The notes under the pieces: generated by a model
Told to the model about the DNA's origin: nothing
The model's database searches: none
The model's input: the letters and a program-made list of their open reading frames with translations, nothing else
Made by a program: the position numbers and the translations under genes
Part shown: piece by piece, positions 23,082 through 57,862 of the stretch
How the letters are laid out: every line of letters begins with the position of its first letter
Numbering within the stretch: the stretch's first letter is position 1
Assembly: GCA_021781475.1 (NCBI GenBank)
Contig: JAJXWT010000003.1
Coordinates: forward strand, 1-64,000
Length of the DNA stretch: 64,000 bases
Reading direction: 5' to 3'
Source of the DNA: a bacterium
GTDB taxonomy: Bacteria; Patescibacteriota; Saccharimonadia; Saccharimonadales; Saccharimonadaceae

Positions 23082-23161
23082 GCGCCCTGCTGCCTTGCTT
23101 TTTAGGGATAAGCGGTTTACTATATACTAAACAATGTGTAACTAACAAGGAGAAGGTGCAT

Positions 23162-23338
23162 ATGCCAGATATAGGCGTACCAGAGTTGATTCTTATCTTA
23201 GTCATTTTATTGCTGCTCGTCGGCGCGAAACGACTGCCCGAGCTTGCCCGCAGCCTTGGTCGTTCTACCAAGGAATTTCGCGATGCATTAAAGGACGGCG
23301 ATGAAAAAACTGATACAAACAAAGACAAAAAGGCATAA
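23162..23338 (+). CDS. tatA: Twin-arginine translocase TatA
   Basis: [36 protein letters not shown]. Confidence 0.92.
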
Positions 23339-24353
23339 AGCTACTCGCACAGAATCCATTCCCGTTACATTCCTTGAACATGTGCACGAGCTCCAGGTTA
23401 GGCTGACCTGGGTTGCTGTTGCCTTTTTGCTTGCGTCGGCCGCAGCGTACCCTTTTTTTGATCAGATTGTTGCGGTGTTGGTTAAGCCGTTGGGCACCAA
23501 GCATCAACTGGTCTACCTGACCCCGGCCGGGGCATTCGGCTTTATTATGCAGGTCTGCATGTACGTTGGGTTTATTGCTGCGCTGCCGGTGATCATATAC
23601 CAAATTTATCAGTTTATTATGCCTGCTATGCAGCGGGTCGAGCGTAAAAAAGTCGTTTTGTATACCAGCCTGTCATTCATATTAGCGCTTGTTGGCGTGT
23701 CGTTTGCGTACTTTGTTGTGCTGCCCGGCGCGCTGTATTTTTTGACAGGCCTTAATTTATACCATATTAACCCAATGCTCACGATTGATTCGTACCTTTC
23801 ATTCGTGATGGCTTATATTATTACGGGTGCGCTTTTGTTCCAGCTGCCGCTCGTACTGCTGCTTATTGATTCCGTGACACCGCTCAAGCCCTCAAAATTA
23901 ATGGGGTTACAGGGGCATGTCATACTTGCCGCATTTATTATTGCCGCCATTGCTTCGCCAACACCAGACGTCGTAAACCAGACATTGCTCGCTATGCCGA
24001 TTGTTATTATGTACCAGTTTGGCGTTGTACTTGTGTGGTTAAAAAGCCGTGCCCGTAAACAGCGTGCGGCGGCACAGCAGGAGCACCCGTTGGCGCTTGA
24101 TTTGCCAGATTTTGTTGACACGGGGGCGCCGGCCTCGCCACCTACTGCTGCACCTGCGCCGCCGCGGGCCGCGCCAGCACCGCAGGTACGCCCCGGCTTG
24201 CGCAGTATGGACGGCATACGGGCAGCCAGGGCTGGGAACACCGAAAGACGCCGGGTGGCTGGGCAGACTGCGGACCGCCCACTGCCGCGCCTCGCGGTGC
24301 GTACGCAGCCGCCGCGGCAGGGCACCATCGACGGCATTTCTGTACGGGGGTAA
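23301..24353 (+). CDS. tatC: Twin-arginine translocase TatC with Pro/Ala/Arg-rich tail
   Basis: [12 protein letters not shown]...; 6 TM; overlaps tatA by 38 nt. Confidence 0.92.
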
Positions 24354-24417: not shown

Positions 24418-24630
24418 ATGAAAATCAATCATTACGTCGCCGACATATTTGAAAAATCAATGACCCGCAAAGAATTTTTGCAGCACATTGGCATTGCTGC
24501 GGTTTTATTGTTGGGTGGTGGCTATATATTAAACTTATTTACTGCCTTTGACCGCAAGCCAACAAGCCAACGGAGCGGTTACAGCTCGGGGTCATATGGT
24601 GGCGGCACCGAAAATACACTCCACCGTTAA
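24418..24630 (+). CDS. 70-aa protein with Tat-like N-terminal TRKEFLQHIG segment and TM
   Basis: Immediately downstream of tatC. Confidence 0.6.
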   Translation: MKINHYVADIFEKSMTRKEFLQHIGIAAVLLLGGGYILNLFTAFDRKPTSQRSGYSSGSYGGGTENTLHR

Positions 24631-25540
24631 TTGGTGGCGCAGGGGCAGGCTATGGCTTTGTGCGGCAGCAATGGGGGCTGCGGTAGCAAGTTGCGCGCCA
24701 GCCCAGCTAGCATTTGCCGCTCCAAAGCAAACGCTGACAATTAGTCCGGTCTCTGCTGCGCTATCACTCAACCCGGGCGCTCGCTACCAGGGCACCATGA
24801 CAGTCGCCAATCAGGGTAATAGCCCTGCCACGATGACATTTTATGTGAGCCCCTATTTTGTGACAGGGGAACAATATAGCCCAATCTTTTCGCACGTTGA
24901 CCAAGCCGTGCGCGCCGATACGTGGGTGCATGTGACGCCACAGGCTGCTACGGTAGCGCCACAAGGTGTTGTCACGCTGAACTATACAGTGTCGCCACCC
25001 GCTAATGCCCGCCCCGGCGGGTACTATGCTGCCGTGTTCGCCCAGGCGAGCAGCGGTGTTGCGGGGGGTGGCACGGTCGGCTTTAGTCAACGGGCTGGCG
25101 AAATCTTATATATTACCGTAAACGGGCCGGCAACCTATGCGGGCGATGCGCAGTTTTCGGGCCTACCCGCCCTTGTGTCATCGGTAACCCTCAGCTCAAG
25201 TATTAGCGTACACAATGCGGGGAGCGTGCATTTTCAGGCGCAAGAGCAATGGAGTGCGGCGCCAATTTTTGGCGGGCTGGTAGACAGCATAAAAAAAACC
25301 GTGTACGTGTTGCCTGGGACGACGCGCCAGGTAACTGCGGCCCTGTCGCTCCGCCCCTATTTTGGGGTTGGTGTGTACAAGGTCACGCGCACGGCAACCT
25401 TTTTGAACAGAACAACACAGAATGCTGCGTTGGTAGTGGCTATCAACCCGGCATGGGCGCTGATTCTAACGGCTGGTATCATAGCAAGCCTTTTGATACG
25501 ATATAAGCATGTACGTCATGCACGGGGCCGCCATGTATAA
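24596..25540 (+). CDS. Secreted/anchored DUF916-like Ig-fold protein
   Basis: Signal peptide, ISPVSAALSLNPGARYQGTMTVANQG...ARPGGYYAAVFA, C-term TM. Confidence 0.6.
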   Translation: MVAAPKIHSTVNWWRRGRLWLCAAAMGAAVASCAPAQLAFAAPKQTLTISPVSAALSLNPGARYQGTMTVANQGNSPATMTFYVSPYFVTGEQYSPIFSHVDQAVRADTWVHVTPQAATVAPQGVVTLNYTVSPPANARPGGYYAAVFAQASSGVAGGGTVGFSQRAGEILYITVNGPATYAGDAQFSGLPALVSSVTLSSSISVHNAGSVHFQAQEQWSAAPIFGGLVDSIKKTVYVLPGTTRQVTAALSLRPYFGVGVYKVTRTATFLNRTTQNAALVVAINPAWALILTAGIIASLLIRYKHVRHARGRHV

Positions 25541-26132
25541 ACGGTTTGTCGCTAGCCTAGCTGCCGCAGGCGCGCTTGCCTTGGCATTCGGTGCGCCCGC
25601 GCATGCCTTAACCTACGGGGCCGGTACGTATGGCACCTGCCAATATGGCACGTGTAGCATTAGTATCACCTCATCGGCCGCAGTCAACTTGGTGGTGAAC
25701 CCAGTGCCGGGCTCGGTGCGCTGCACAGTTGCCAGCAACCAAGTCGATGTCTCAACCGAAGCCAGCACGGGCTTCACCCTGACACAGTCAAGCACAACAG
25801 CGCAAACAGCGCTCGGTGACGCAGGCGGTGCGACAATACCAATTGTTGGTGGCACTGTTGGTGCACCAGTTGCGCTTGCTGCTAACCAGTGGGGTTTCCG
25901 TGTAGATAGTGGTGCATTCGGCACAGGCCCGACTTCGGCTGTGAGCGACAGCACTATCCCTTCGCTCACTTTTGCCTCTATTGGCGCATCAACCACTCCG
26001 GCGCTGGTTGCCACCACGGCAGCAGCCGCAACGCCGGCCACGACTATGGTGTGGTATGGGCTATGCGCTGACATGCAGCAGCCCGCAGGCAGCTACACGG
26101 GTAGCATTTTATATACGGCGGTAACCAACTAA
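25533..26132 (+). CDS. Secreted Ala/Thr-rich hypothetical protein
   Basis: Signal peptide MYKRFVASLAAAGALALAFGAPAHA. Confidence 0.6.
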   Translation: MYKRFVASLAAAGALALAFGAPAHALTYGAGTYGTCQYGTCSISITSSAAVNLVVNPVPGSVRCTVASNQVDVSTEASTGFTLTQSSTTAQTALGDAGGATIPIVGGTVGAPVALAANQWGFRVDSGAFGTGPTSAVSDSTIPSLTFASIGASTTPALVATTAAAATPATTMVWYGLCADMQQPAGSYTGSILYTAVTN

Positions 26133-26194
26133 TGGCGCATAGGGCTTATGCTATAATAGCTTTTGACAACAATTCCATAGGAGGGAATATATAA

Positions 26195-26671
26195 ATGACG
26201 GCGCGTTTGCCAATACCGGGGAGCGATGACGGCCTGTGGGGCAACCTGCTGAATACTTTTTTGTCGGTAGCCCATAATGCTGACGGCACACTAATGGCGA
26301 GTGCTGTGCAGGCGGCCAGCCGGGCCCAAACTTTGCCGTATTCGTATAGTGGCAGTCTGTCGGTCGCAACTGGCGCGATACGCCTATACAACGATACAGC
26401 GAGTGCCTGGACGATCACTGGTGTGCGTGCCAGTGTCGGTACGGCGCCAACCGGGGCGGCAGTAATTGTTGATATTAAATTAAATGGTACGACAATCTTT
26501 ACTACACAGGCAAATCGGCCGACAATTGCCGTCAGCACCAATACATCTGGGAACGTCACAAATATGGATGTGACATCGGTTGCTGTTGGGGGCTACCTGA
26601 CGGTTGATATTGCTCAAGTTGGCTCCACCATTGCGGGGTCAGATTTAAGCGTACAAGTGGAGGTGCAGTAG
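26195..26671 (+). CDS. Phage tail-fiber-like protein
   Basis: LPIPGSDDGLWGNLLNTFLSVAHNADGTL motif; TATAAT 26152 and AGGAGG 26179 upstream. Confidence 0.6.
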   Translation: MTARLPIPGSDDGLWGNLLNTFLSVAHNADGTLMASAVQAASRAQTLPYSYSGSLSVATGAIRLYNDTASAWTITGVRASVGTAPTGAAVIVDIKLNGTTIFTTQANRPTIAVSTNTSGNVTNMDVTSVAVGGYLTVDIAQVGSTIAGSDLSVQVEVQ

Positions 26672-26675
26672 GGCT

Positions 26676-27662
26676 ATGGCGCTGTTTTTTATAGAGGGTT
26701 TTGACACGGGTGACTTTAGCAGGTGGTATGAAAACGGGTTTGGCTCGATTACAACCACGCGTTTCTCTTCGGGCAGGTCTGCGTCAATTGGCAGCAATGT
26801 ATCTACGGTCGGTTTTAGCCCCGTGGCGCAGCTTTTCGCGGGGTTTGCCTTTAATTCGAATGCGGGCACGCGATGGACCAACGATATGCTTAGGTTGTTT
26901 ACTGATGCTGGCGCCACACTGCAGCTCTCGCTCTCTATCAAGAGTGCCGGGGTGCTTAGCCTTTATCTGGGGGGAAATGGCGGTGGTACGCTGCTGGGAA
27001 CCGCAACAATTCCATCGACTGGGTGGATGTATCTAGAGGTGTCAGCCACTATTAATAGTACGGGGGGAGCTGTAGTTGTCCGGCTCAATGGGGTAACGGT
27101 CATTAGCTATACCGGCAATACAAAAAACGGGGGCACGAGCACATCAATTGATACCATATCATTTTCAGGATCAATCAACAATTATTATTTTGATGACCTT
27201 TACATGTGTGACGCAACCGGTACCACGAACAATACTTTCCTCGGTGACGTGCGCGTACAAACCCTGATGCCGAATGGCGCGGGTAGCTCTACCCAGCTTA
27301 CGCCAACAGGCTCCGCAAGTAATTATGTAAATGTATCCGAAATACCTGATAATACGGCGACCTATAACTCATCGAGTACAGTCGGCCAACGGGATACGTA
27401 CGCGATGGCGGATTTAGTGGCAACAACGAACACCATTTATGGCATCCAGAATAATATTGTGGCCTGGAAATCAGATGCTGGTACTGCCGGTATTAAACCT
27501 TCCGTACTGACAAACTCAACCTTGTACTATTCGCCAACAATCATGTTATCTGCATCACCGTACAGTTATGCAAGCCCTGTGCTTGAGAGCAACCCGGTTA
27601 CGGGTGTGGCGTGGACTGCGGCCGACGTAAATGGGGCTGAGTTTGGTGCCGAGGTCGCCTAG
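26676..27662 (+). CDS. Phage-structural/lectin-like protein, paralogue 1
   Basis: YYFDDLYMCDATGTTNNTFLGDVRVQTLMPNGAGSSTQLTPTGSASNYVNV pattern. Confidence 0.65.
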   Translation: MALFFIEGFDTGDFSRWYENGFGSITTTRFSSGRSASIGSNVSTVGFSPVAQLFAGFAFNSNAGTRWTNDMLRLFTDAGATLQLSLSIKSAGVLSLYLGGNGGGTLLGTATIPSTGWMYLEVSATINSTGGAVVVRLNGVTVISYTGNTKNGGTSTSIDTISFSGSINNYYFDDLYMCDATGTTNNTFLGDVRVQTLMPNGAGSSTQLTPTGSASNYVNVSEIPDNTATYNSSSTVGQRDTYAMADLVATTNTIYGIQNNIVAWKSDAGTAGIKPSVLTNSTLYYSPTIMLSASPYSYASPVLESNPVTGVAWTAADVNGAEFGAEVA

Positions 27663-27663
27663 C

Positions 27664-28644
27664 ATGGCGCTAGTGTTCACGGATGGGTTTGACGCCAAGG
27701 ATTACGCAAGAAAATGGGCCTATAATCTAGCGGCGACTACAAGCACGACAACGCGCTATGGCGCAGGTGCATCGCTTGCGTTTACATCGAGCAACGGGTA
27801 TATATTCCGTACGTTTTCCCCAATTACCGATATGTATGTTGGCTTTGCGTTTATGTTCACCAGTAGCTCCGGGTATGATATTGTCCGACTGTACGGGGAT
27901 TCAAACCAAACAGAAAATATCCACATTACGCCTGAGTCGTATAGCGGTTCAAACAAAATCGGCGTTTATCGGGGTCTGAATACGCTCGGAACATTTACGC
28001 TACAATATAATGTTTGGTACTACATTGAAATCTACGCGAAAATAGACGCCACCGCAGGCGCGCTCCAGGTGAATGTGAACGGCGCGAATGTAGTATCGTA
28101 CAGCGGCAACACTTTAAATGGCACCAATACGAGTACCGATGGGTTGTGGTTATTGCAATCCGGTACGTGCTACTTTGACGATTTATATGTGTGTGACAAC
28201 ACTGGCACGACGAACAACACCTTTTTGGGTGAAGTGCGCGTGCAGTTGCTCCTGCCGAATGGTGCGGGCACGACCACCCAACTTGCGCCAACAGGCTCGG
28301 CTACCAACTACGTGAACGTGAGTGAGGTGCCCGATTCGACAAGTACGTATAATTCTTCGGCCACAACGGGCCAGCGCGATACGTACGCTATGAGCGACGC
28401 GCTCGCCGCCGACACGACAATTTTGGGGGTGCAGCAAAATATGGTTGCGGCAACGGCTGGCAGCGGCCAGGGGCCGTTAAAGTCGGCCTTGCAGCTGAAT
28501 GGGACGTTGTATTATGGGCCCACGGTACTGCCCAGTACATCGTTTGCGTGGTACGGTAATATGTACCAGCAAAATCCAAATACTGCCGCCGCCTGGACGG
28601 TCGCAGACGTTGATGGCCTCGAAGCGGGCGCGGAGGTGGCATAG
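27664..28644 (+). CDS. Phage-structural/lectin-like protein, paralogue 2
   Basis: Clear paralogue of preceding gene (CYFDDLYVCDNTGTTNNTFLGEVRVQLLLPNGAGTTTQL). Confidence 0.65.
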   Translation: MALVFTDGFDAKDYARKWAYNLAATTSTTTRYGAGASLAFTSSNGYIFRTFSPITDMYVGFAFMFTSSSGYDIVRLYGDSNQTENIHITPESYSGSNKIGVYRGLNTLGTFTLQYNVWYYIEIYAKIDATAGALQVNVNGANVVSYSGNTLNGTNTSTDGLWLLQSGTCYFDDLYVCDNTGTTNNTFLGEVRVQLLLPNGAGTTTQLAPTGSATNYVNVSEVPDSTSTYNSSATTGQRDTYAMSDALAADTTILGVQQNMVAATAGSGQGPLKSALQLNGTLYYGPTVLPSTSFAWYGNMYQQNPNTAAAWTVADVDGLEAGAEVA

Positions 28645-28646
28645 CT

Positions 28647-29576
28647 ATGTCATACGCGAGCACTGTTCTTGCGGACTCACCTGTCATATTTTTGCAACTC
28701 GACGAAACATCGGGGACAAGCGCGGCAGATAGTGGTTCAAATGGCGTCGCCTGGACCTACCAAACTGGTGTTACCCTTGGTGTCACAGCGCCATTTTCAG
28801 TTGGCGGTACCGCCATTAACCCCCCGGGCACGACGCCAGCTGCCGTGCTCTCAACCCCACCAGCATCGGTAGCGAGCCCGCGCGGCACGTCGATTGAAAT
28901 ATCGGTCAATATCCCAACAACATCGCTAAAGGGTGAGTTTGTTGACCTTGGCAACGGAAGTAACGGGTGGAGCGTCGGTGTTGGTAGTGGCTCATTTGAC
29001 ACGGTAGGCAATAACCTTATTGTGCTGCAAGAGGGCGCCGGTTGGTACGACACGGGCGTGCAAATGGGCACGGGCCCGCACCACGTGATTGTTACCAATA
29101 GTACGGCCGGAACCATTAGCTGCTACTTGGACGGCACGCTCGTCAAAACCTTTACCAATGCGGGGTCGCCGTCAACGGCAACTTCGTTTAACCTTGCCGG
29201 CGTAGGGACGCGCACGCTACCTGCCACAATTACGGTGGACAACCTGGCCGTTTATGCGGCCGTGCTAACTCAAACACAAGTGACCGCCCACTGGGACGCT
29301 ATTTATGTCACGTTGCCATATGTGGCGGCAGAATTAAGCCAGCTGACGCTCGAAGTGGTAAGCACGAATCCGTCCCCGCAGCGTGACCTAAGCAGTGTGT
29401 CAATGCTTACGCTCACGGCTTCCACGTCGCCACCACGACAACTCTCATCGGCTGACATGCAGGTGCTGACATCCTCAAACCCGCCACGGGTTTTGTCATC
29501 TGTTTTCACAGAAGTTCTCACTCCGTCATACCCAAAGCCAAAGTTTATTGGCTGGGGCCTACCAATCTCGCAATAA
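28647..29576 (+). CDS. LamG/concanavalin-like protein with C-terminal repeats
   Basis: LDETSGTSAADSGSNG...; LAVYAAVLTQTQVTAHW; LSSVSMLTL/LSSADMQVL/LSSVFTEVL repeats. Confidence 0.65.
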   Translation: MSYASTVLADSPVIFLQLDETSGTSAADSGSNGVAWTYQTGVTLGVTAPFSVGGTAINPPGTTPAAVLSTPPASVASPRGTSIEISVNIPTTSLKGEFVDLGNGSNGWSVGVGSGSFDTVGNNLIVLQEGAGWYDTGVQMGTGPHHVIVTNSTAGTISCYLDGTLVKTFTNAGSPSTATSFNLAGVGTRTLPATITVDNLAVYAAVLTQTQVTAHWDAIYVTLPYVAAELSQLTLEVVSTNPSPQRDLSSVSMLTLTASTSPPRQLSSADMQVLTSSNPPRVLSSVFTEVLTPSYPKPKFIGWGLPISQ

Positions 29577-49483: not shown

Positions 49484-49879
49484 CTAGTTGCGGCTTTTCT
49501 TGACGTACTCGGCTTCGCGTTCCATAGTGCTCTTGAGCGTGTAGCTTGAGCATGCTCCATCGGTCGTGCAGCCAGTTGGTTCATATTGAAAGTCCGAGCC
49601 GGCCGTGCCAATCTTGACGCCTTTGGGGTCCATAAACAGTTTAGGGTCAACCGAACGGAGCACTTTGCTGTCGACAGTTGCTGGGTAGGAATGGTGCTCG
49701 GGGTAGTAGACTTCCTCGAGCGCATAGTACATTGCATTAATTGAAACTTTGCGCGCGGTGTCTCGCTCGGCTTGGTTAATTTGGTTGCGTTCTACAAAAA
49801 AAAGTGTGCCAGCGGCGACAATGACGGCAATTGCTACCAACAACTCAATAACCGTGAACCCTTTTACTCGTTGTGTCAT
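49484..49879 (-). CDS. Type IV pseudopilin
   Basis: KGFTVIELLVAIAVI prepilin motif. Confidence 0.9.
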   Translation of the reverse strand: MTQRVKGFTVIELLVAIAVIVAAGTLFFVERNQINQAERDTARKVSINAMYYALEEVYYPEHHSYPATVDSKVLRSVDPKLFMDPKGVKIGTAGSDFQYEPTGCTTDGACSSYTLKSTMEREAEYVKKSRN

Positions 49880-49960
49880 ATACGCTTATTGTACCAGATT
49901 TCATAGTGCTATGCAGGGGTTTACGTTATAATAAAAGCATTAGTAATAGAGGGAGAGTAT

Positions 49961-51001
49961 ATGGCAAAAAAGTCCGAGGATAAGACATTGGCCGAAAAAC
50001 CGGTTGCCAGCGAAGATAAGCTGCGAGCACTTGGCCTTGCAATGCAACAAATCACCAAAGAATTTGGGGATGGCAGCATCATGAAGTTGGGTGACGCGCA
50101 CCACGCAAATGTTGAGATGATATCAAGCGGCTCGTTGAGCTTAGATATCGCGCTTGGTGGCGGGTACCCAAAAGGCCGCATCATTGAGATTTACGGCCCG
50201 GAAAGCAGCGGTAAAACAACCCTGACTTTGCATGCGATTGCCGAAGTCCAAAAGCGCGGCGGGACCGCAGCATTTATTGATGCCGAACACGCCCTTGACC
50301 CGGCATACGCCAAACGTTTGGGCGTCGATACCGAAAACTTACTTGTCAGCCAGCCCGATAATGGCGAACAGGCGCTTGAAATCGTGGAAACGCTCGTTCG
50401 GAGCAACGCGGTTGACATCGTTGTTATTGACAGCGTTGCCGCATTGGTGCCACAGGCAGAAATTGATGGTGACATGGGTGACGCGCACATGGGTCTCCAA
50501 GCTCGTTTGATGAGCCAGGCCCTTCGCAAGCTAACCGGCATTATTGATAAGAGCAAAACGACGGTGTTCTTTATTAACCAAATACGTATGAAGATTGGTG
50601 TTATGTTTGGTAACCCGGAAACAACGACGGGCGGGAACGCACTAAAGTTTTATGCGAGTGTCCGCGCCGACATTCGCCGCACTGGCCAAATCAAAGAAGG
50701 CGAAGAGATTACTGGCAACCGTACTAAGGTTAAGATTGTAAAGAACAAAATTGCGCCGCCGTTTAGGACTGCCGAGTTTGACATTATGTATAACCAAGGC
50801 ATTAGCAAGACGGGCGACGTGCTTGACCTGGGCGTGCTGTACAACGTGGTAGAAAAGTCGGGTGCCTGGTTCGCCTATAACGGTGAAAAAATCGGTCAAG
50901 GCCGCGAAGCCGCAAAAAAGTATCTGGCTGCAAACTCAAATGTACTTGATGAAATAGACGCGAAAGTCAAAGAGATTGTCAAGCAAGCGGAAGCAGTGTA
51001 G
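49961..51001 (+). CDS. recA: RecA
   Basis: [17 protein letters not shown]. Confidence 0.99.
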
Positions 51002-51035
51002 CGAGCTCGGGCTCCCCATGCGCGAGGGTGCGTAC

Positions 51036-51671
51036 ATGAAAATCACGAGTATCACTGCACAAGCTAGGAACGCCAATCGCGTCAACGTGAGTGTCGATGG
51101 CAAGTATCGGTTTAGCCTTGATATTTACCAAGTGGCTGAACTTGGCATACGGGTAGGGAAAGATTATAGCGAGCAACAGCTTACCGAGTTGGAAACTGAA
51201 AGCCAGTTTGGCAAGCTGTACGCGCGCGCCCTGGAATATACAATGCTTCGCCCACACAGTGGCAAAGAGGTACGGGACTATTTATTTCGGAAAACCCGGC
51301 CACGTATGAATAGGGAAGGCGAAAAAAGGGAAGGCTACTCCCCTGCCCTTACCAGCCGTGTGTATGACCGGCTGCTCGAAAAGGGCTATATTGATGATGA
51401 AAAATTCGCACGCTTTTGGGTCGAAAACCACCATCGCGCTAAGGGTGCTTCCCTGCGCAGATTGGCAGCTGAACTCCGGGCGAAGGGTGTTGCGGCAGAC
51501 GTAGCGGGGCCCGTACTTGCTGAGTCCGATCGCACCGATAGTGATGAGCTCAAAAAAATTATCGCTAAAAAACGGAGCCGTTACCCAGATGAGCAAAAGC
51601 TTATGGCGTATCTCGCCCGTCAGGGATTTAGCTATGACGATATTAAAGCTGCGCTTATGGGTGACAATTAG
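51036..51671 (+). CDS. recX: RecX family regulator
   Basis: LLEKGYIDDEKFARFWVENHHRAKGASLRRLAAELRAKG. Confidence 0.9.
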   Translation: MKITSITAQARNANRVNVSVDGKYRFSLDIYQVAELGIRVGKDYSEQQLTELETESQFGKLYARALEYTMLRPHSGKEVRDYLFRKTRPRMNREGEKREGYSPALTSRVYDRLLEKGYIDDEKFARFWVENHHRAKGASLRRLAAELRAKGVAADVAGPVLAESDRTDSDELKKIIAKKRSRYPDEQKLMAYLARQGFSYDDIKAALMGDN

Positions 51672-52256
51672 CTAATTTGGCAGCGCATTAGATTCCGATG
51701 CAGCTTCTGTTGGTTTACGGAACGGGTTGATGTAGCTCCCTGTGACTTCTGCTCGTTCTGGCTCTGGCGCTTTTGCCTCTGAGTGGACGACGATTGCCTC
51801 GTTGTTAATCTCAATAATTTGGGTGCGGTGTATGATAAGCTCTGTGTCGGTGAGGCTACTCATTAGCGGGCGTTTTACGACGAGCTGTTGAATGTAATAA
51901 CTGGCGACGTCGATCGTAAAGTCCCCGACCTTACCAAGCTTTTTACCGCGTTCGTCTTGCACGCGCATGCCAACAAGGGTAAACCGCAGGCTCAGGATAG
52001 TATCGAGGGCAACCACATCGCCAGGCGCAACAAGCTCATCCGCTGAATCGACAATAAGGCCCATATCGCTGAGTTCGCGAATGTCCTGGGTAAGTATATA
52101 ACTTGGTTGCTGGCCGGTGATTGCCCCGGTGATTTCGTAGGCGATAATTGTTAACTTGGCAGGGTCAATAATTGGCCGGCTGGTCGTTCCGATCACACCG
52201 CCAGTTTGGATGCTGACGGCTGATGCACGTTGGAGACTTGAGCCAAGGAGTATCAT
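51672..52256 (-). CDS. PRC-barrel domain protein
   Basis: GMRVQDERGKKLGKVGDFTID. Confidence 0.7.
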   Translation of the reverse strand: MILLGSSLQRASAVSIQTGGVIGTTSRPIIDPAKLTIIAYEITGAITGQQPSYILTQDIRELSDMGLIVDSADELVAPGDVVALDTILSLRFTLVGMRVQDERGKKLGKVGDFTIDVASYYIQQLVVKRPLMSSLTDTELIIHRTQIIEINNEAIVVHSEAKAPEPERAEVTGSYINPFRKPTEAASESNALPN

Positions 52257-52262
52257 GACTCA

Positions 52263-52544
52263 TTACTCCGTGAATGGGTTATTACGCTGATTTGTCGGTA
52301 GAGGAACTGTATAGTTCGGTGTGTTACTGAGCTGTTGCACGCGTTTAATAGTGGCTTGGTCAAAGACCGCTGCCTGCCCGGTTTGGCTGCTCCCGACGGT
52401 ACCGCTCGATTGGTTGGCGATACCAAGCAGTGAGTAAATCGCTAGGCCGGTGCCAGTCGCAGCGATAGTTATGAACATTAGCAAGTGATAGCGCCAAAAG
52501 AATCGCTTAATTTTTGTTGTTGGTGAACCCATTGCGTTGCTCAT
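52263..52544 (-). CDS. Single-TM hypothetical protein in pilus operon
   Basis: ORF in operon, one TM. Confidence 0.6.
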   Translation of the reverse strand: MSNAMGSPTTKIKRFFWRYHLLMFITIAATGTGLAIYSLLGIANQSSGTVGSSQTGQAAVFDQATIKRVQQLSNTPNYTVPLPTNQRNNPFTE

Positions 52545-53167
52545 TTCATGTATACTCCCAGGGTCAGCGAATCACAGCTTACAAGTGTTTTGCCATCTTT
52601 GGATACGCCAGTGCCCGTAATACTCACTTTTGATACTTGCATGGACATCGTGTTTTGTTCAATGTAGTGCAAGAACAGAATCAGATTATCGTACGGTAAT
52701 GGGGATGCGAGCGTAATACTCACCTGTTTCATTGTCACACCACCAGGTATTGTAATCGGAGCCGCAGCTCCGCCAGCTGCACTCGTTGGGGGCGGCGTTG
52801 AGGTGCCGGTTGCCGCTACCGCGCTTGTAAAGTCGATATTTGTGATAGATACGTTTGCAGAGCTTGCGATTGCCTTAAGCGCAGTCACGACCTGGTCCTG
52901 ATAGGTGTATTGCAGGTTCGAAGCAAGCATGTCTTGCACTTTTTTCTCAACACCTGCGTTGGCCTTTAACTCGGCTTGTTCTTGCTTTAGGGCATTAATT
53001 TTTTCATTGCTATTCGCGCTTTCTGTCGTGACCCGTGCAGTTTCGTCGGCCTTTTGAACCAGCAGGCCGTGTACATACAAAAATCCGGCTGTTGCGCCTG
53101 CAATAATAAGCAAAAGGCAGGCAATAAGGATTGCGCTCACGACGGGGGCTGATATTTTAGCACGCAT
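52541..53167 (-). CDS. pilO: PilO-like pilus assembly protein
   Basis: TM plus coiled coil, follows pilN; ATGA overlap. Confidence 0.7.
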   Translation of the reverse strand: MRAKISAPVVSAILIACLLLIIAGATAGFLYVHGLLVQKADETARVTTESANSNEKINALKQEQAELKANAGVEKKVQDMLASNLQYTYQDQVVTALKAIASSANVSITNIDFTSAVAATGTSTPPPTSAAGGAAAPITIPGGVTMKQVSITLASPLPYDNLILFLHYIEQNTMSMQVSKVSITGTGVSKDGKTLVSCDSLTLGVYMK

Positions 53168-53172
53168 TCCGA

Positions 53173-53736
53173 TTACGCTCCTTTTTTAATGGTTACAACA
53201 AGCTGTGCATTGACGGGATACGCTGAACCAGCTTGCTGGTTTGTGCTATTACTGAGCGTCAGCGAAAGGAAGTGAACGTCACTAAACAAGGGGGAGCTTT
53301 GGAAGCTTTGCTTAAGGGCAATTGCGTCTTGTTCGGTTTTTGCATTCACTTGTAGTGACATAGGCGTGCCGTAGGTAGATTCGTCGAGGGTAATATTGTT
53401 CAGCGTGGTGCCGGGGGTCATAAGGCTCGTGATTTTTAGGAGTGTATCGGTGTAATGTGTTTGCTGGTCAAGAATGGCTTTTGAGACCGCAAGGTTGGTG
53501 CGAAACGCATCTGCTCGCTGTTGTATGCCGGAAAGGTTGCTGACACTTGCAAGGTTTTCGTTGATACGTGTCTGGGCAGATTGCTTAATCACGTCTAGCG
53601 TTACAGAGGTAAATGCCGACAAAATACCAATTAGGCCGCACAATAACAGCGTGATCCAAATGTAGCGTATAAGCATTGAATTGAGCCGACCAGCCGCAAA
53701 ATGTCGCTTTGCTTCGGGTGGTAAAAGGTTAATCAT
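53173..53736 (-). CDS. pilN: PilN-like protein
   Basis: MINLLPPEAKRHF motif. Confidence 0.85.
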   Translation of the reverse strand: MINLLPPEAKRHFAAGRLNSMLIRYIWITLLLCGLIGILSAFTSVTLDVIKQSAQTRINENLASVSNLSGIQQRADAFRTNLAVSKAILDQQTHYTDTLLKITSLMTPGTTLNNITLDESTYGTPMSLQVNAKTEQDAIALKQSFQSSPLFSDVHFLSLTLSNSTNQQAGSAYPVNAQLVVTIKKGA

Positions 53737-54791
53737 GAGAGCACCTCTTCGCGCGCGACACTTGCGAGGCCGGCGACTGATATATAGCGTGGGCGGAACT
53801 GCTTGCTTGGTTCTTTGAGCTTACCAAAATTAAGCTGCTGCCAGGGGCTTGCGACGCGTGCTGGCATAACGAGGGCGTTCGTAAAGTAGTCACCAAGCCC
53901 AGGGACGTTGCTGCCGCCACCGACAATAAGGACTTGCTCAATTTTACGCTCCTGGTTTAAGCGCTCGTTGTAGTAGCGGATGACCTTTTTTGACTCAGAA
54001 ATAATTCGTTCGAGTGACGGTTTGAGCGCGTGCGTAATTTTGGCTTGGCGCGGGCTAAGGGTGAGGCCGTTAATGACTTTAAACTGATGGGCAGATTCGA
54101 GTGTGATATCAAGCTTGTTGGCAATATCAAGCGTAAAGGTGTTGCCGCCAATGCCAACGCTCCCGGTAACGCGTATTGCCCCACCTTCGAGCACCGCAAT
54201 GTCGGTCGTTGCTGGCCCAACATCGATAATAAGCGTGGAAAGGTTGCCTTGTTCGGTTAATTCAAGGACCCGTGCCACTGCGTCAATACTCGGGACAACC
54301 ATAACAGGCACGAGGTTTGCGTTTTCTGCAGCCTTTGTGCACGCATCGACAAGAACTTTTGGCACGGCAGTCATGGCGATTGTCAGTGTGTCTTTAGTGT
54401 GTTCAATAATTTGATAGTCAACGTACAGCGAGCTCATGGGGATAGGAATGTACTGCTCAACCTCTATTTCGAGGGCGCTTTTAACGTGGGCCGATTCTTT
54501 TGCTGGTAGGGTAAAGGTGCGCGAAAATGTTCGCCCAGTGGGCACGCCAATAACCGCGTAATTGCTGCCCAAGTTGCCGATTATGTGGTCTTTTAGGAGC
54601 GATGCGATATTATCGCTTAGGTATGTATCGTCGGGGTTGTCGAGCGACTTTTGGATAGCTGCCGGATCGAGATCGACTGACCCATACCCAAGCACGTGCA
54701 GCTGCGCGGCATCAATGGACATAACCTTGATACCCGTTAAGCTCACGTCTAGGCCAATAACCGGTTTGCTTTTATAAAATAATTGTCCCAC
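53733..54791 (-). CDS. pilM: PilM-like ATPase
   Basis: PVIGLDVSLTGIKVM; EIEVEQYIPIPM; LIIDVGPATTDIAV. Confidence 0.92.
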   Translation of the reverse strand: MGQLFYKSKPVIGLDVSLTGIKVMSIDAAQLHVLGYGSVDLDPAAIQKSLDNPDDTYLSDNIASLLKDHIIGNLGSNYAVIGVPTGRTFSRTFTLPAKESAHVKSALEIEVEQYIPIPMSSLYVDYQIIEHTKDTLTIAMTAVPKVLVDACTKAAENANLVPVMVVPSIDAVARVLELTEQGNLSTLIIDVGPATTDIAVLEGGAIRVTGSVGIGGNTFTLDIANKLDITLESAHQFKVINGLTLSPRQAKITHALKPSLERIISESKKVIRYYNERLNQERKIEQVLIVGGGSNVPGLGDYFTNALVMPARVASPWQQLNFGKLKEPSKQFRPRYISVAGLASVAREEVLS

Positions 54792-54849
54792 TAACGAATG
54801 CCCATACCTTTAATCTGTTTTCAGTATACCATAAGCGCCATGTATAGCG

Positions 54850-56079
54850 TTAGTTCTTAATGTTTTGCGACAGGTTTGCGATTGGGATCATAACGCTCGC
54901 GGCAATGAGCCCAACCAGGCCACCCATTATGACAATCATGACTGGTTCGATAATGGCGCTCACGCCTTCAATGGCCGCATCGACTTCTTCGTCATAAAAG
55001 TCGGCAACCTTCACCAGGACCACGTCGGTTTGGCCGGTTTCTTCGCCAACGGCAAGCATCTGCGACACAATTGGCGGGAACAAGGTGTTTTTTTCAATCA
55101 CGACTGATAGGTTTTTACCGTTTTTTACTTCTTCGGCGGCATCGAGCAGGGCTTGCTCATACACGACGTTGCCAACGGCGTGCGCTGTAACGGTGAGCGC
55201 TTCGAGCACAGAAACCCCTGCCCCCATAAGGGCAGAGAAGGTGCGAGCAAACCGGGCCACTGCCACTTTGACGATGATAGTGTTAATTGCCGGAACTTTT
55301 AATACAAAAGTGTGGAAGTGCTTTTTGCCTTTTGGCGTTTTAACGTAACGCAGTAGTAGCACGATACTACCGATAATTGCTGGGATAATCCATAATATAT
55401 TGGCAGTTAAAAACGCGCTAATGCCAAGCATTACCTGTGTAAGTGCCGGTAGTTGCGCGTCTGGGCCACCCAGATCTTTTACGATCTTACCAATTTGCGG
55501 AATAATGAAAATCATCAGCCCAAAAAAGGCAATGGTCGTGATGGTCATAAGGACAACTGGGTAGCTCATTGCGCTCTTAACTTTTTTGCGAATGCTGGCA
55601 CTTTTTTCTTGCTGCAGTGCAAGCCGCTTTAAAATATCGTCTAAGATACCTGCTGCTTCGCCGGCGCGCACCATATTGACGTACACATCAGAAAATGCGT
55701 TGGGATACTTTACCAAGGCATCGGCAAGCGTTGCGCCCGCTTCGACATCTTTTATCACGCCTTCAATTACGTGCCGCAGATTGCCGCTTTCGGCATGGTC
55801 GTGGAGTGACGATAACGCACGCAGAATAGGCACGCCGGCGCTTACCATGGCGGAAAGCTGGCGGGTAAACAACACCAACTGGTCGGATTTTACTTTATCT
55901 TTCCCAAAAAAATCACTGGTGCTAAAGATACTTTTCTTGCCGTCGCCTTCGCGAATGCTGATTGGTTTAAGGTTTTGGCGGCCCAACGATGCGAGCGCGC
56001 CCGCCCGGTCTACGGCTTCGAGTGTCCCTGTTTTTGAGTTGTTATTTTGATCAACTGCTATGTAATAAAAAAGTGCCAT
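54850..56079 (-). CDS. pilC: Type II secretion/type IV pilus inner-membrane protein (GspF/PilC)
   Basis: LVLFTRQLSAMVSAGVPILRAL; FARTFSALMGAGVSVLEAL. Confidence 0.95.
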   Translation of the reverse strand: MALFYYIAVDQNNNSKTGTLEAVDRAGALASLGRQNLKPISIREGDGKKSIFSTSDFFGKDKVKSDQLVLFTRQLSAMVSAGVPILRALSSLHDHAESGNLRHVIEGVIKDVEAGATLADALVKYPNAFSDVYVNMVRAGEAAGILDDILKRLALQQEKSASIRKKVKSAMSYPVVLMTITTIAFFGLMIFIIPQIGKIVKDLGGPDAQLPALTQVMLGISAFLTANILWIIPAIIGSIVLLLRYVKTPKGKKHFHTFVLKVPAINTIIVKVAVARFARTFSALMGAGVSVLEALTVTAHAVGNVVYEQALLDAAEEVKNGKNLSVVIEKNTLFPPIVSQMLAVGEETGQTDVVLVKVADFYDEEVDAAIEGVSAIIEPVMIVIMGGLVGLIAASVMIPIANLSQNIKN

Positions 56080-56080
56080 T

Positions 56081-57862
56081 TTATTCTTTCGTTACCCTTA
56101 GTACCTCTGCAATTGTTGTCACACCCCTCAGCGCCTTAATGGTGCCGTCGGTTTGCATAGTCGTCATTTTTTCGGCAATGGCTTGGTCTTGGATTTGGTT
56201 GCTCGTGGCGCTGGCCATAATGAGTTTTTGGACTGCAATAGAATTAGCAAGCGCTTCGTAGATACCAATGCGCCCCTTGTAGCCAGTATGACTGCACTCA
56301 TCGCAGCCACCTTCGTGGGCCCGCCACAGCGTGGTAACGGCCTGGTCAGTGGTGCCAAGTGGCACGTCGTTGCCGATACCGTCACTCAGCGCACTTTCGT
56401 TGAGGCTATGGATGTAGGTGAACGACTGATCTGGTTTTAAGTTAAACAGGCTAGCTACTTCGGCGGCTTCGGCTTCGGTCGGCGCAAAGCTTTCACGGCA
56501 GACCTTGCACAGGCGGCGCACTAGGCGCTGGCCAACGACTGCTTTTACGGTACTAGCGATTAAAAATGGCTCCACGTTCATATCCAGCAAGCGTGGTAGG
56601 CAGGTTGCTGCATTATTGGTGTGCAAGGTGGAAAGCACGAGGTGCCCAGTTAGGGCGGCCTGCACCGCTAGGTCGGCGGTTTCACTGTCGCGAATCTCAC
56701 CAACCATAATGATGTTTGGGTCTTGGCGCAACAGGGCTCGTAGGCCGTTGGCGAATGTCATGCCGGCCTTTGAGTTGGTTTGCGTTTGGTTGACGCCTGG
56801 AATTTTATACTCGACTGGGTCTTCAACTGTCGAAATATTGACTTCGGGTTTATTTAAAAGGGTCAGCACCGAAAACAAGCTTGTTGATTTACCGCTCCCG
56901 GTTGGCCCGGTAATCAAAATCATGCCGTCTGGTTCGAGCATGGCTTGCTGCATTACGTGGAGCGAGTGGCCCCAGTAGCCAAGATCTTGTAGGGTGACGG
57001 CCTGGTTTGATTCATCCAGAACGCGCATCACTACTTTTTCGCCATCAGCGATTGGTAGCGTGCTGACACGCAGCGCATACTGGCGGCCTGCAACACGAAT
57101 TTTAAATCGACCATCTTGCGGTACGCGGCGTTCGTCAATTTTCAGGTTGGACATAATTTTAATACGGCTCACGAGCGCACCAAGCACGCTGCGCGGCACG
57201 CGGTTTACTTCGTGGAGCACGCCGTCAATGCGGTAGCGGATTTGCACAAAATCCTCACGTGGCTCGATGTGGATGTCGGATGCGTTTGAGCGAATGGCAT
57301 ATTCTAGCAGTAGGTTCACCGTTTGGGCCACCGGTGAATCTTCGGCAATATCGGCGTCAGAAACCTGCTGTGCCGAGCCGTCGTCTTCGCGCTGAATGTC
57401 AATAACCTCTTTTAGCTCTTGGTTGACGTCGCCGCGGTAATTTTCGAGTACCGCAAGGATATTGTCGTGTGGCGCGATATATAATTTTATGTTTTCGCCG
57501 ATTTCTTTTTTAATGAAATCAAGGGCCTGCACATCATCGGGGTCGTCCATTGCCAGGTGAACGGTGTCATTGGCATCAACGTTGAATATAACGGCGTTAT
57601 ATTGCCGGGCAATCCGCTCGGGGATGCGCTGCATAATTTCGGTCGGGACTTCTTTAGGATCGAGCTCGATGTAGGGAATATCCGCGTAGTCGGCGAATAA
57701 CTTTGTCAGGGTTGGCTCATCGATAATTTTATTCGCAATCACCAGCTCTTGCAGCTGCCGGTTTGAATGTTCGCCCTCTTCCTTAAGGGATGCGATTTGT
57801 TCATCGGTCGCTAAACCGCTTTGGGAAAGTAGCTTTAAGACGGTGTTATCAGAAATTCTCAT
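56081..57862 (-). CDS. pilB: Type IV pilus assembly ATPase PilB/GspE
   Basis: GPTGSGKSTSLFSVL; ASDIHIEPRED; LRQDPNIIMVGEIRD. Confidence 0.97.
   Translation of the reverse strand: MRISDNTVLKLLSQSGLATDEQIASLKEEGEHSNRQLQELVIANKIIDEPTLTKLFADYADIPYIELDPKEVPTEIMQRIPERIARQYNAVIFNVDANDTVHLAMDDPDDVQALDFIKKEIGENIKLYIAPHDNILAVLENYRGDVNQELKEVIDIQREDDGSAQQVSDADIAEDSPVAQTVNLLLEYAIRSNASDIHIEPREDFVQIRYRIDGVLHEVNRVPRSVLGALVSRIKIMSNLKIDERRVPQDGRFKIRVAGRQYALRVSTLPIADGEKVVMRVLDESNQAVTLQDLGYWGHSLHVMQQAMLEPDGMILITGPTGSGKSTSLFSVLTLLNKPEVNISTVEDPVEYKIPGVNQTQTNSKAGMTFANGLRALLRQDPNIIMVGEIRDSETADLAVQAALTGHLVLSTLHTNNAATCLPRLLDMNVEPFLIASTVKAVVGQRLVRRLCKVCRESFAPTEAEAAEVASLFNLKPDQSFTYIHSLNESALSDGIGNDVPLGTTDQAVTTLWRAHEGGCDECSHTGYKGRIGIYEALANSIAVQKLIMASATSNQIQDQAIAEKMTTMQTDGTIKALRGVTTIAEVLRVTKE

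Follow-up and report, generated by a model that had tools for sequence, protein, structure and literature searches.

A probable Tat-linked display system for phage-type fibre proteins in Saccharibacteria

The locus described here lies in the window, that is, the whole stretch of 64,000 nucleotides that was analysed, from a Patescibacterial draft genome (809 kb, 30 contigs) whose named relatives are Saccharibacteria. It is probably one instance of a Patescibacterial system in which phage-type fibres are displayed by means of the twin-arginine translocation (Tat) pathway. In the mechanism that we propose, fibre proteins lacking a signal would fold in the cytoplasm, and the bare N-terminus of such a fibre, a module here called MOD, would bind the YGxSxYGG tail of a small carrier, TatX. 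TatX would be recognised by TatA/TatC, the complex would be translocated in the folded state with the fibre as a hitch-hiker, and TatX would be kept in the membrane via its uncleaved signal; alternatively, the fibre may be passed on to secreted or membrane-anchored YG proteins. The displayed fibre would serve as an adhesin, probably gripping surface glycans or host cells. MOD and YG together would be the plug that phages use for fixing fibres to tails, with the YG dock relocated in Saccharibacteria onto a Tat signal. A wider reading, which we favour with somewhat less confidence, is that MOD and YG form a plug and socket common to phages, Patescibacteria and DPANN archaea, and that the Patescibacterial socket on a Tat signal represents a new surface display class for folded phage-type fibres, which would be what Saccharibacteria chiefly use Tat for.

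All genes of the locus are on the + strand. It opens with tatA (23156-23338; Pfam TatA_B_E, 1e-17) and tatC (23301-24353; Pfam TatC, 4e-50), followed by tatX (24418-24630; profile A2, 6e-20), the proposed carrier and dock. An Ig-fold-like envelope protein, membrane-anchored through a C-terminal hydrophobic stretch and a proposed accessory, is encoded at 24596-25540; it appeared DUF916-like by eye, with all Pfam matches sub-threshold, and has relatives near further Tat/fibre loci (L110, L125, L085, L124). The product of 25509-26132 is a secreted protein in which a signal peptide is followed by YGAGTYGTCQYG (25614-25649), and it is a possible second YG dock that could receive the fibre from TatX; it matches NCBIfam CPR_Pam_pilin_C weakly (4.5e-4, below cut-off) and has relatives in L238, L243, L217 and L110. 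The flanking genes examined encode MurJ, LepA, TatA, TatC, a cytidylate-kinase-like protein, HrcA, GrpE and DnaK. As the preliminary description had reported, no phage structural genes were seen nearby: the gene neighbours at the locus are housekeeping genes, with no virion or lysis genes among them. Sheath, tube or baseplate genes of a contractile injection system (eCIS) were not noticed in the window either. Elsewhere in the window (49484-57862), a series of genes looks by eye like those of a type IV pilus, with pilin-, PilM-, PilC- and PilB-like products. The lepA gene, intact in the window, is broken into two ORFs by at least one foreign ORF in L092 (3639-4736 and 7698-8657, as an example), L093, L094, L098 and L103, the genomes concerned being G012, G009, G011, G022 and probably G003.

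Four consecutive genes at 26195-29576 encode the fibre-like proteins, and none of them starts with a signal peptide, both as first described. ORF1 (26195-26671; 158 aa; phrog_27064, 8e-22) consists of MOD, its proposed N-terminal docking module (26195-26311; profile A1, E 6.6e-21), and a beta domain that is also present in phage proteins and other MOD proteins. Its AlphaFold model is poor (pLDDT 58.6, pTM 0.25) except for a helix predicted within MOD at residues 14-26. ORF2 (26676-27662; 328 aa; phrog_2448, 2e-38) and ORF3 (27664-28644; 326 aa; phrog_2448, 3e-37) are phage-type two-domain lectin-like proteins that match the PHROG profile over nearly its full length (positions 2/3-333 of 335); at 49% identity to each other, they bear out the reported tandem of lectin-like paralogues. 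The open reading frame list offers an earlier ATG for ORF3 at 27631, and we set its start at 27664 because the paralogue and the phage homologues begin with MALVF. ORF3 matched 131 phage records at below 60% identity, with homologues located among minor tail proteins, as in Brevundimonas phage Delta; its predicted structure (pLDDT 70) reached TM 0.81 against phage models and gave weak PDB matches to carbohydrate-binding beta-sandwich folds. ORF4 (28647-29576; 309 aa) carries the LamG domain (PF13385, Laminin_G_3, 5.6e-9) and C-terminal repeats noted before, and is homologous to the beginning of a YG-tailed protein that adjoins MOD in the viral contig L172. Neither ORF1 and ORF4 nor the MOD profile matched any PDB sequence, and a collagen family search across the window's own genome likewise gave nothing.

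Phage relatives thus exist for all four products, and the suggestion of a tail-derived module is upheld by the PHROG matches of ORF1-ORF3 together with the phage records and fold match of ORF3. The TATAAT at 26152 and the AGGAGG at 26179 that had been cited as strong expression signals are both present; "strong" holds for the ribosome site only, because TTGACA lies 3' of TATAAT and no two-hexamer promoter was called. Within the proposed mechanism ORF1 would be the docked protein and ORF2-ORF4 glycan-binding parts riding along, which is the least certain step: these three have neither MOD nor an export signal, and the mechanism leaves their export unexplained.

MOD is a module of about 38 residues with the pattern M-A/S-RLPxPGxDxGxWGxxLNxFL. 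An alignment of 33 sequences had 11 invariant columns, including R4, L5, P6, D11, W15, G16, L19 and N20. Across Saccharibacteria it heads dozens of signal-less fibre-like proteins, with up to 20 copies per genome, whose C-terminal parts are collagen-like, beta-helix-like or of other kinds. It stands at the N-terminus, within 4 residues of Met, in nearly all of the 158 distinct cases with the start present, and since it begins at residues 2-4 in nearly all of these proteins, the cargo has no export signal of its own. Carriers with names are almost all Saccharibacteria; matches labelled Rhizobiaceae, Pseudonocardiales and Chloroflexi (L234, L209, L227, L246) were left out because their binning is doubtful.

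The distribution of MOD follows that of Tat closely. Among 245 genomes of the class, MOD was found in 67 and TatC in 69, with 65 genomes having both, 2 MOD only (G186 and G274, the MOD match of the latter being marginal), 4 TatC only and 174 neither (Fisher p 9e-52). When 24 order-level genomes were compared, one per family, the MOD and TatC sets were identical (10/24, p 5e-7). Fisher values overstate significance, as genomes share ancestry; the comparison with one genome per family is the fairer of these. In 380 genomes of the phylum, TatC was present in 21/21 MOD genomes vs 13/359 others; the six MOD carriers of this sample that fall outside the class all had TatC, and four had the whole cassette. 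Genuine MOD occurred in 21 of 60 relatives, all 21 with TatC, while TatC alone was found in 2 more. One of these 2, G006, has a contig that ends beside tatX, so the MOD gene may be missing from the draft; G015 was excluded from the MOD count, its match falling outside the module and containing two stops.

Gene order points the same way. The order tatA-tatC-tatX-MOD recurs in many genomes, and in the window, as in its genus-mates G003 and G005, tatC and tatX precede the MOD gene, near lepA/hrcA. TatC was present in all 65 class genomes with a credible tatX, and in 50 of these tatX lies within 1.5 kb of tatC. The module had been called an orphan that merely sits downstream of tatAC, a description that does not hold, since the Tat genes look like members of the system. 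The majority of MOD genes are distant from tatX, so one carrier would have to serve many fibres in trans, and fibres scattered over a genome would share a single TatX.

TatX, a small gene that the preliminary description overlooked and that is central to the proposed system, encodes about 60 residues (~45-80) with a [STD]R[KRQ]xF[LI] motif, a single hydrophobic stretch and, at the C-terminus, a tail resembling YGxSxYGG. The window copy carries TRKEFL as its Tat-type signal, a single hydrophobic stretch and the tail YSSGSYGGG (24580-24606), a motif common to phage genes that adjoin MOD. Motif and hydrophobic stretch were found in 15/15 aligned TatX; compared with the Tat consensus S/T-R-R-x-F-L-K, R and F are invariant and the second residue is mostly K, sometimes R or Q. 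The TAT signal family TIGR01409 matches 3/15. Given that TatB_1 (NF038009) matches all 15 aligned members, although the window copy scores 36.4 bits (4.4e-9) vs a family cut-off of 100 bits, and that tatX adjoins tatC, TatX could instead be a TatB-like translocase component, with MOD recognised by TatC or another factor and no hitch-hiking on TatX. We consider this unlikely. It would leave aside the Tat-type signal motif itself, the recurrence of the YG tail in phage genes beside MOD, where Tat is absent, and the presence of several tatX copies in some genomes. TatX-like leaders also front beta-helix-looking proteins of about 400 residues in G231 (L285, L286), a genome with Tat and without MOD, and in G139 (L290). 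These fusions are apparently direct Tat substrates, which speaks for the leader being a Tat signal and against its being a part of the translocase. Tandem copies bear on the same point: in the non-Saccharibacterial Patescibacterium G473, the order tatX-MOD-tatX-MOD was observed (L275, 3890-7969), with identical tatX copies.

Outside bacteria, MOD keeps company with YG peptides. On IMG/VR contigs, counting loci with a callable MOD gene (L161/L163 and L158/L166 being near-duplicates), a YG motif (YGxGxY) lay near the C- or N-terminus of the adjoining gene in 14/21 loci vs 1/291 other genes (p 4e-13), and was absent from the adjacent genes in the remaining 7/21. In the Streptomyces phages BRock and GiJojo (L252, L253), MOD proteins lie inside a tRNA-rich region, with no YG motif in the 16 kb examined. 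On contigs of DPANN-type archaeal MAGs (L223, L244, L250), a Sec signal peptide is followed by MOD with no gap; the mature end would therefore be S/A-RLP, as in bacteria after removal of Met. Secreted YG proteins are encoded immediately after MOD in L223 and L244 and one gene further along in L250; those of L244 and L250 have a terminal hydrophobic stretch. YG peptides therefore accompany MOD in phages, bacteria and archaea alike, and Tat joins the pair only in Patescibacteria, a pattern consistent with binding of MOD to YG.

The archaeal arrangement, with secreted YG proteins beside or near MOD, also lends itself to another reading, in which the real surface dock would be a pilin-like or C-terminally anchored YG protein exported by Sec, and TatX a transport escort only. 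Sec-exported or membrane-anchored YGxGxYG proteins adjoin many tat operons, in many genomes beside tatA, and the product of 25509-26132 is a case in the window. Such proteins are not universal, however, and the strict tie to Tat holds for TatX only, so that we regard this reading as rather improbable, and a little more so than a TatB-like role; it is compatible with our main model, in which TatX both carries and docks the fibre, and does not exclude it.

Least probable is that phage or a tailocin left these fibre genes behind, unexpressed or with cytoplasmic products, and that the Tat link is a coincidence of mobile cassettes: the phage relatives of all four products speak for it, as does the absence of ORF2/ORF3 from all other 60 relatives compared, so that their acquisition was probably recent, but the reading frames are intact, the copies many and scattered, the co-occurrence with TatC near-perfect across families, the neighbours at the locus housekeeping genes, and a closed genome, Saccharibacterial T. 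rhizospherense (CP025011), carries MOD (L186) and is reported to have no integrated phage (PMC6031116). We rejected a prophage remnant on the flanks, the scatter of copies and the TatC co-occurrence. The interpretation first offered thus stands in part: a domesticated adhesion apparatus was the better half of the guess, while a defective-prophage or moron remnant is not supported, as the module occurs alongside Tat at dispersed positions in numerous genomes, and also in the closed T. rhizospherense genome.

If the proposed system is real, it would give Saccharibacterial Tat a purpose and suggest how these parasitic cells may grip others. Host attachment and host choice by episymbiotic Patescibacteria, as well as the role of their Tat, would gain a mechanism in swappable phage-type fibres on a common dock, and the system would supply a genomic marker and a small tag-and-plug pair. 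Our literature search on fibres and Tat in Saccharibacteria or Patescibacteria, whose scope left out preprints and most subscription journals, returned no paper that joins the two. According to the description of T. rhizospherense (PMC6031116), no other Saccharibacterium known at the time had a complete Tat system, and four unrelated candidate Tat substrates are given for it. A freshwater survey recorded TatA/TatC in some Saccharimonadia, Microgenomatia and Paceibacteria, the portion at hand naming no dedicated substrates (PMC9166423).

Set against these accounts, which as far as their available text goes give Patescibacterial Tat few or no dedicated substrates (PMC6031116; PMC9166423), MOD fibres accompanied nearly all Saccharibacterial occurrences of Tat examined here. 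TatX-like proteins are already in NCBIfam as TatB_1 (NF038009, twin-arginine translocation system-associated protein), where they are classed as TatB-like and given no role, whereas we propose that they are carriers combining a Tat signal with a docking tail. The closest functional likeness is to hitch-hiker export by Tat in E. coli, as in HybO-HybC and PaoABC (PMC4273604), where a signal-less folded partner crosses with a partner that has the Tat signal. Those cases concern cofactor enzymes with a dedicated partner, while here a peptide-tagged carrier of about 60 residues would serve many interchangeable fibres and may stay as a membrane anchor. The likeness to the N-terminal anchor domains of phage tail fibres is that MOD stands N-terminally on phage fibre-like proteins, beside a gene whose product bears a YG motif at one end; the dock in phage fibre anchoring is a virion protein, whereas in Saccharibacteria it would be a protein with a Tat signal.
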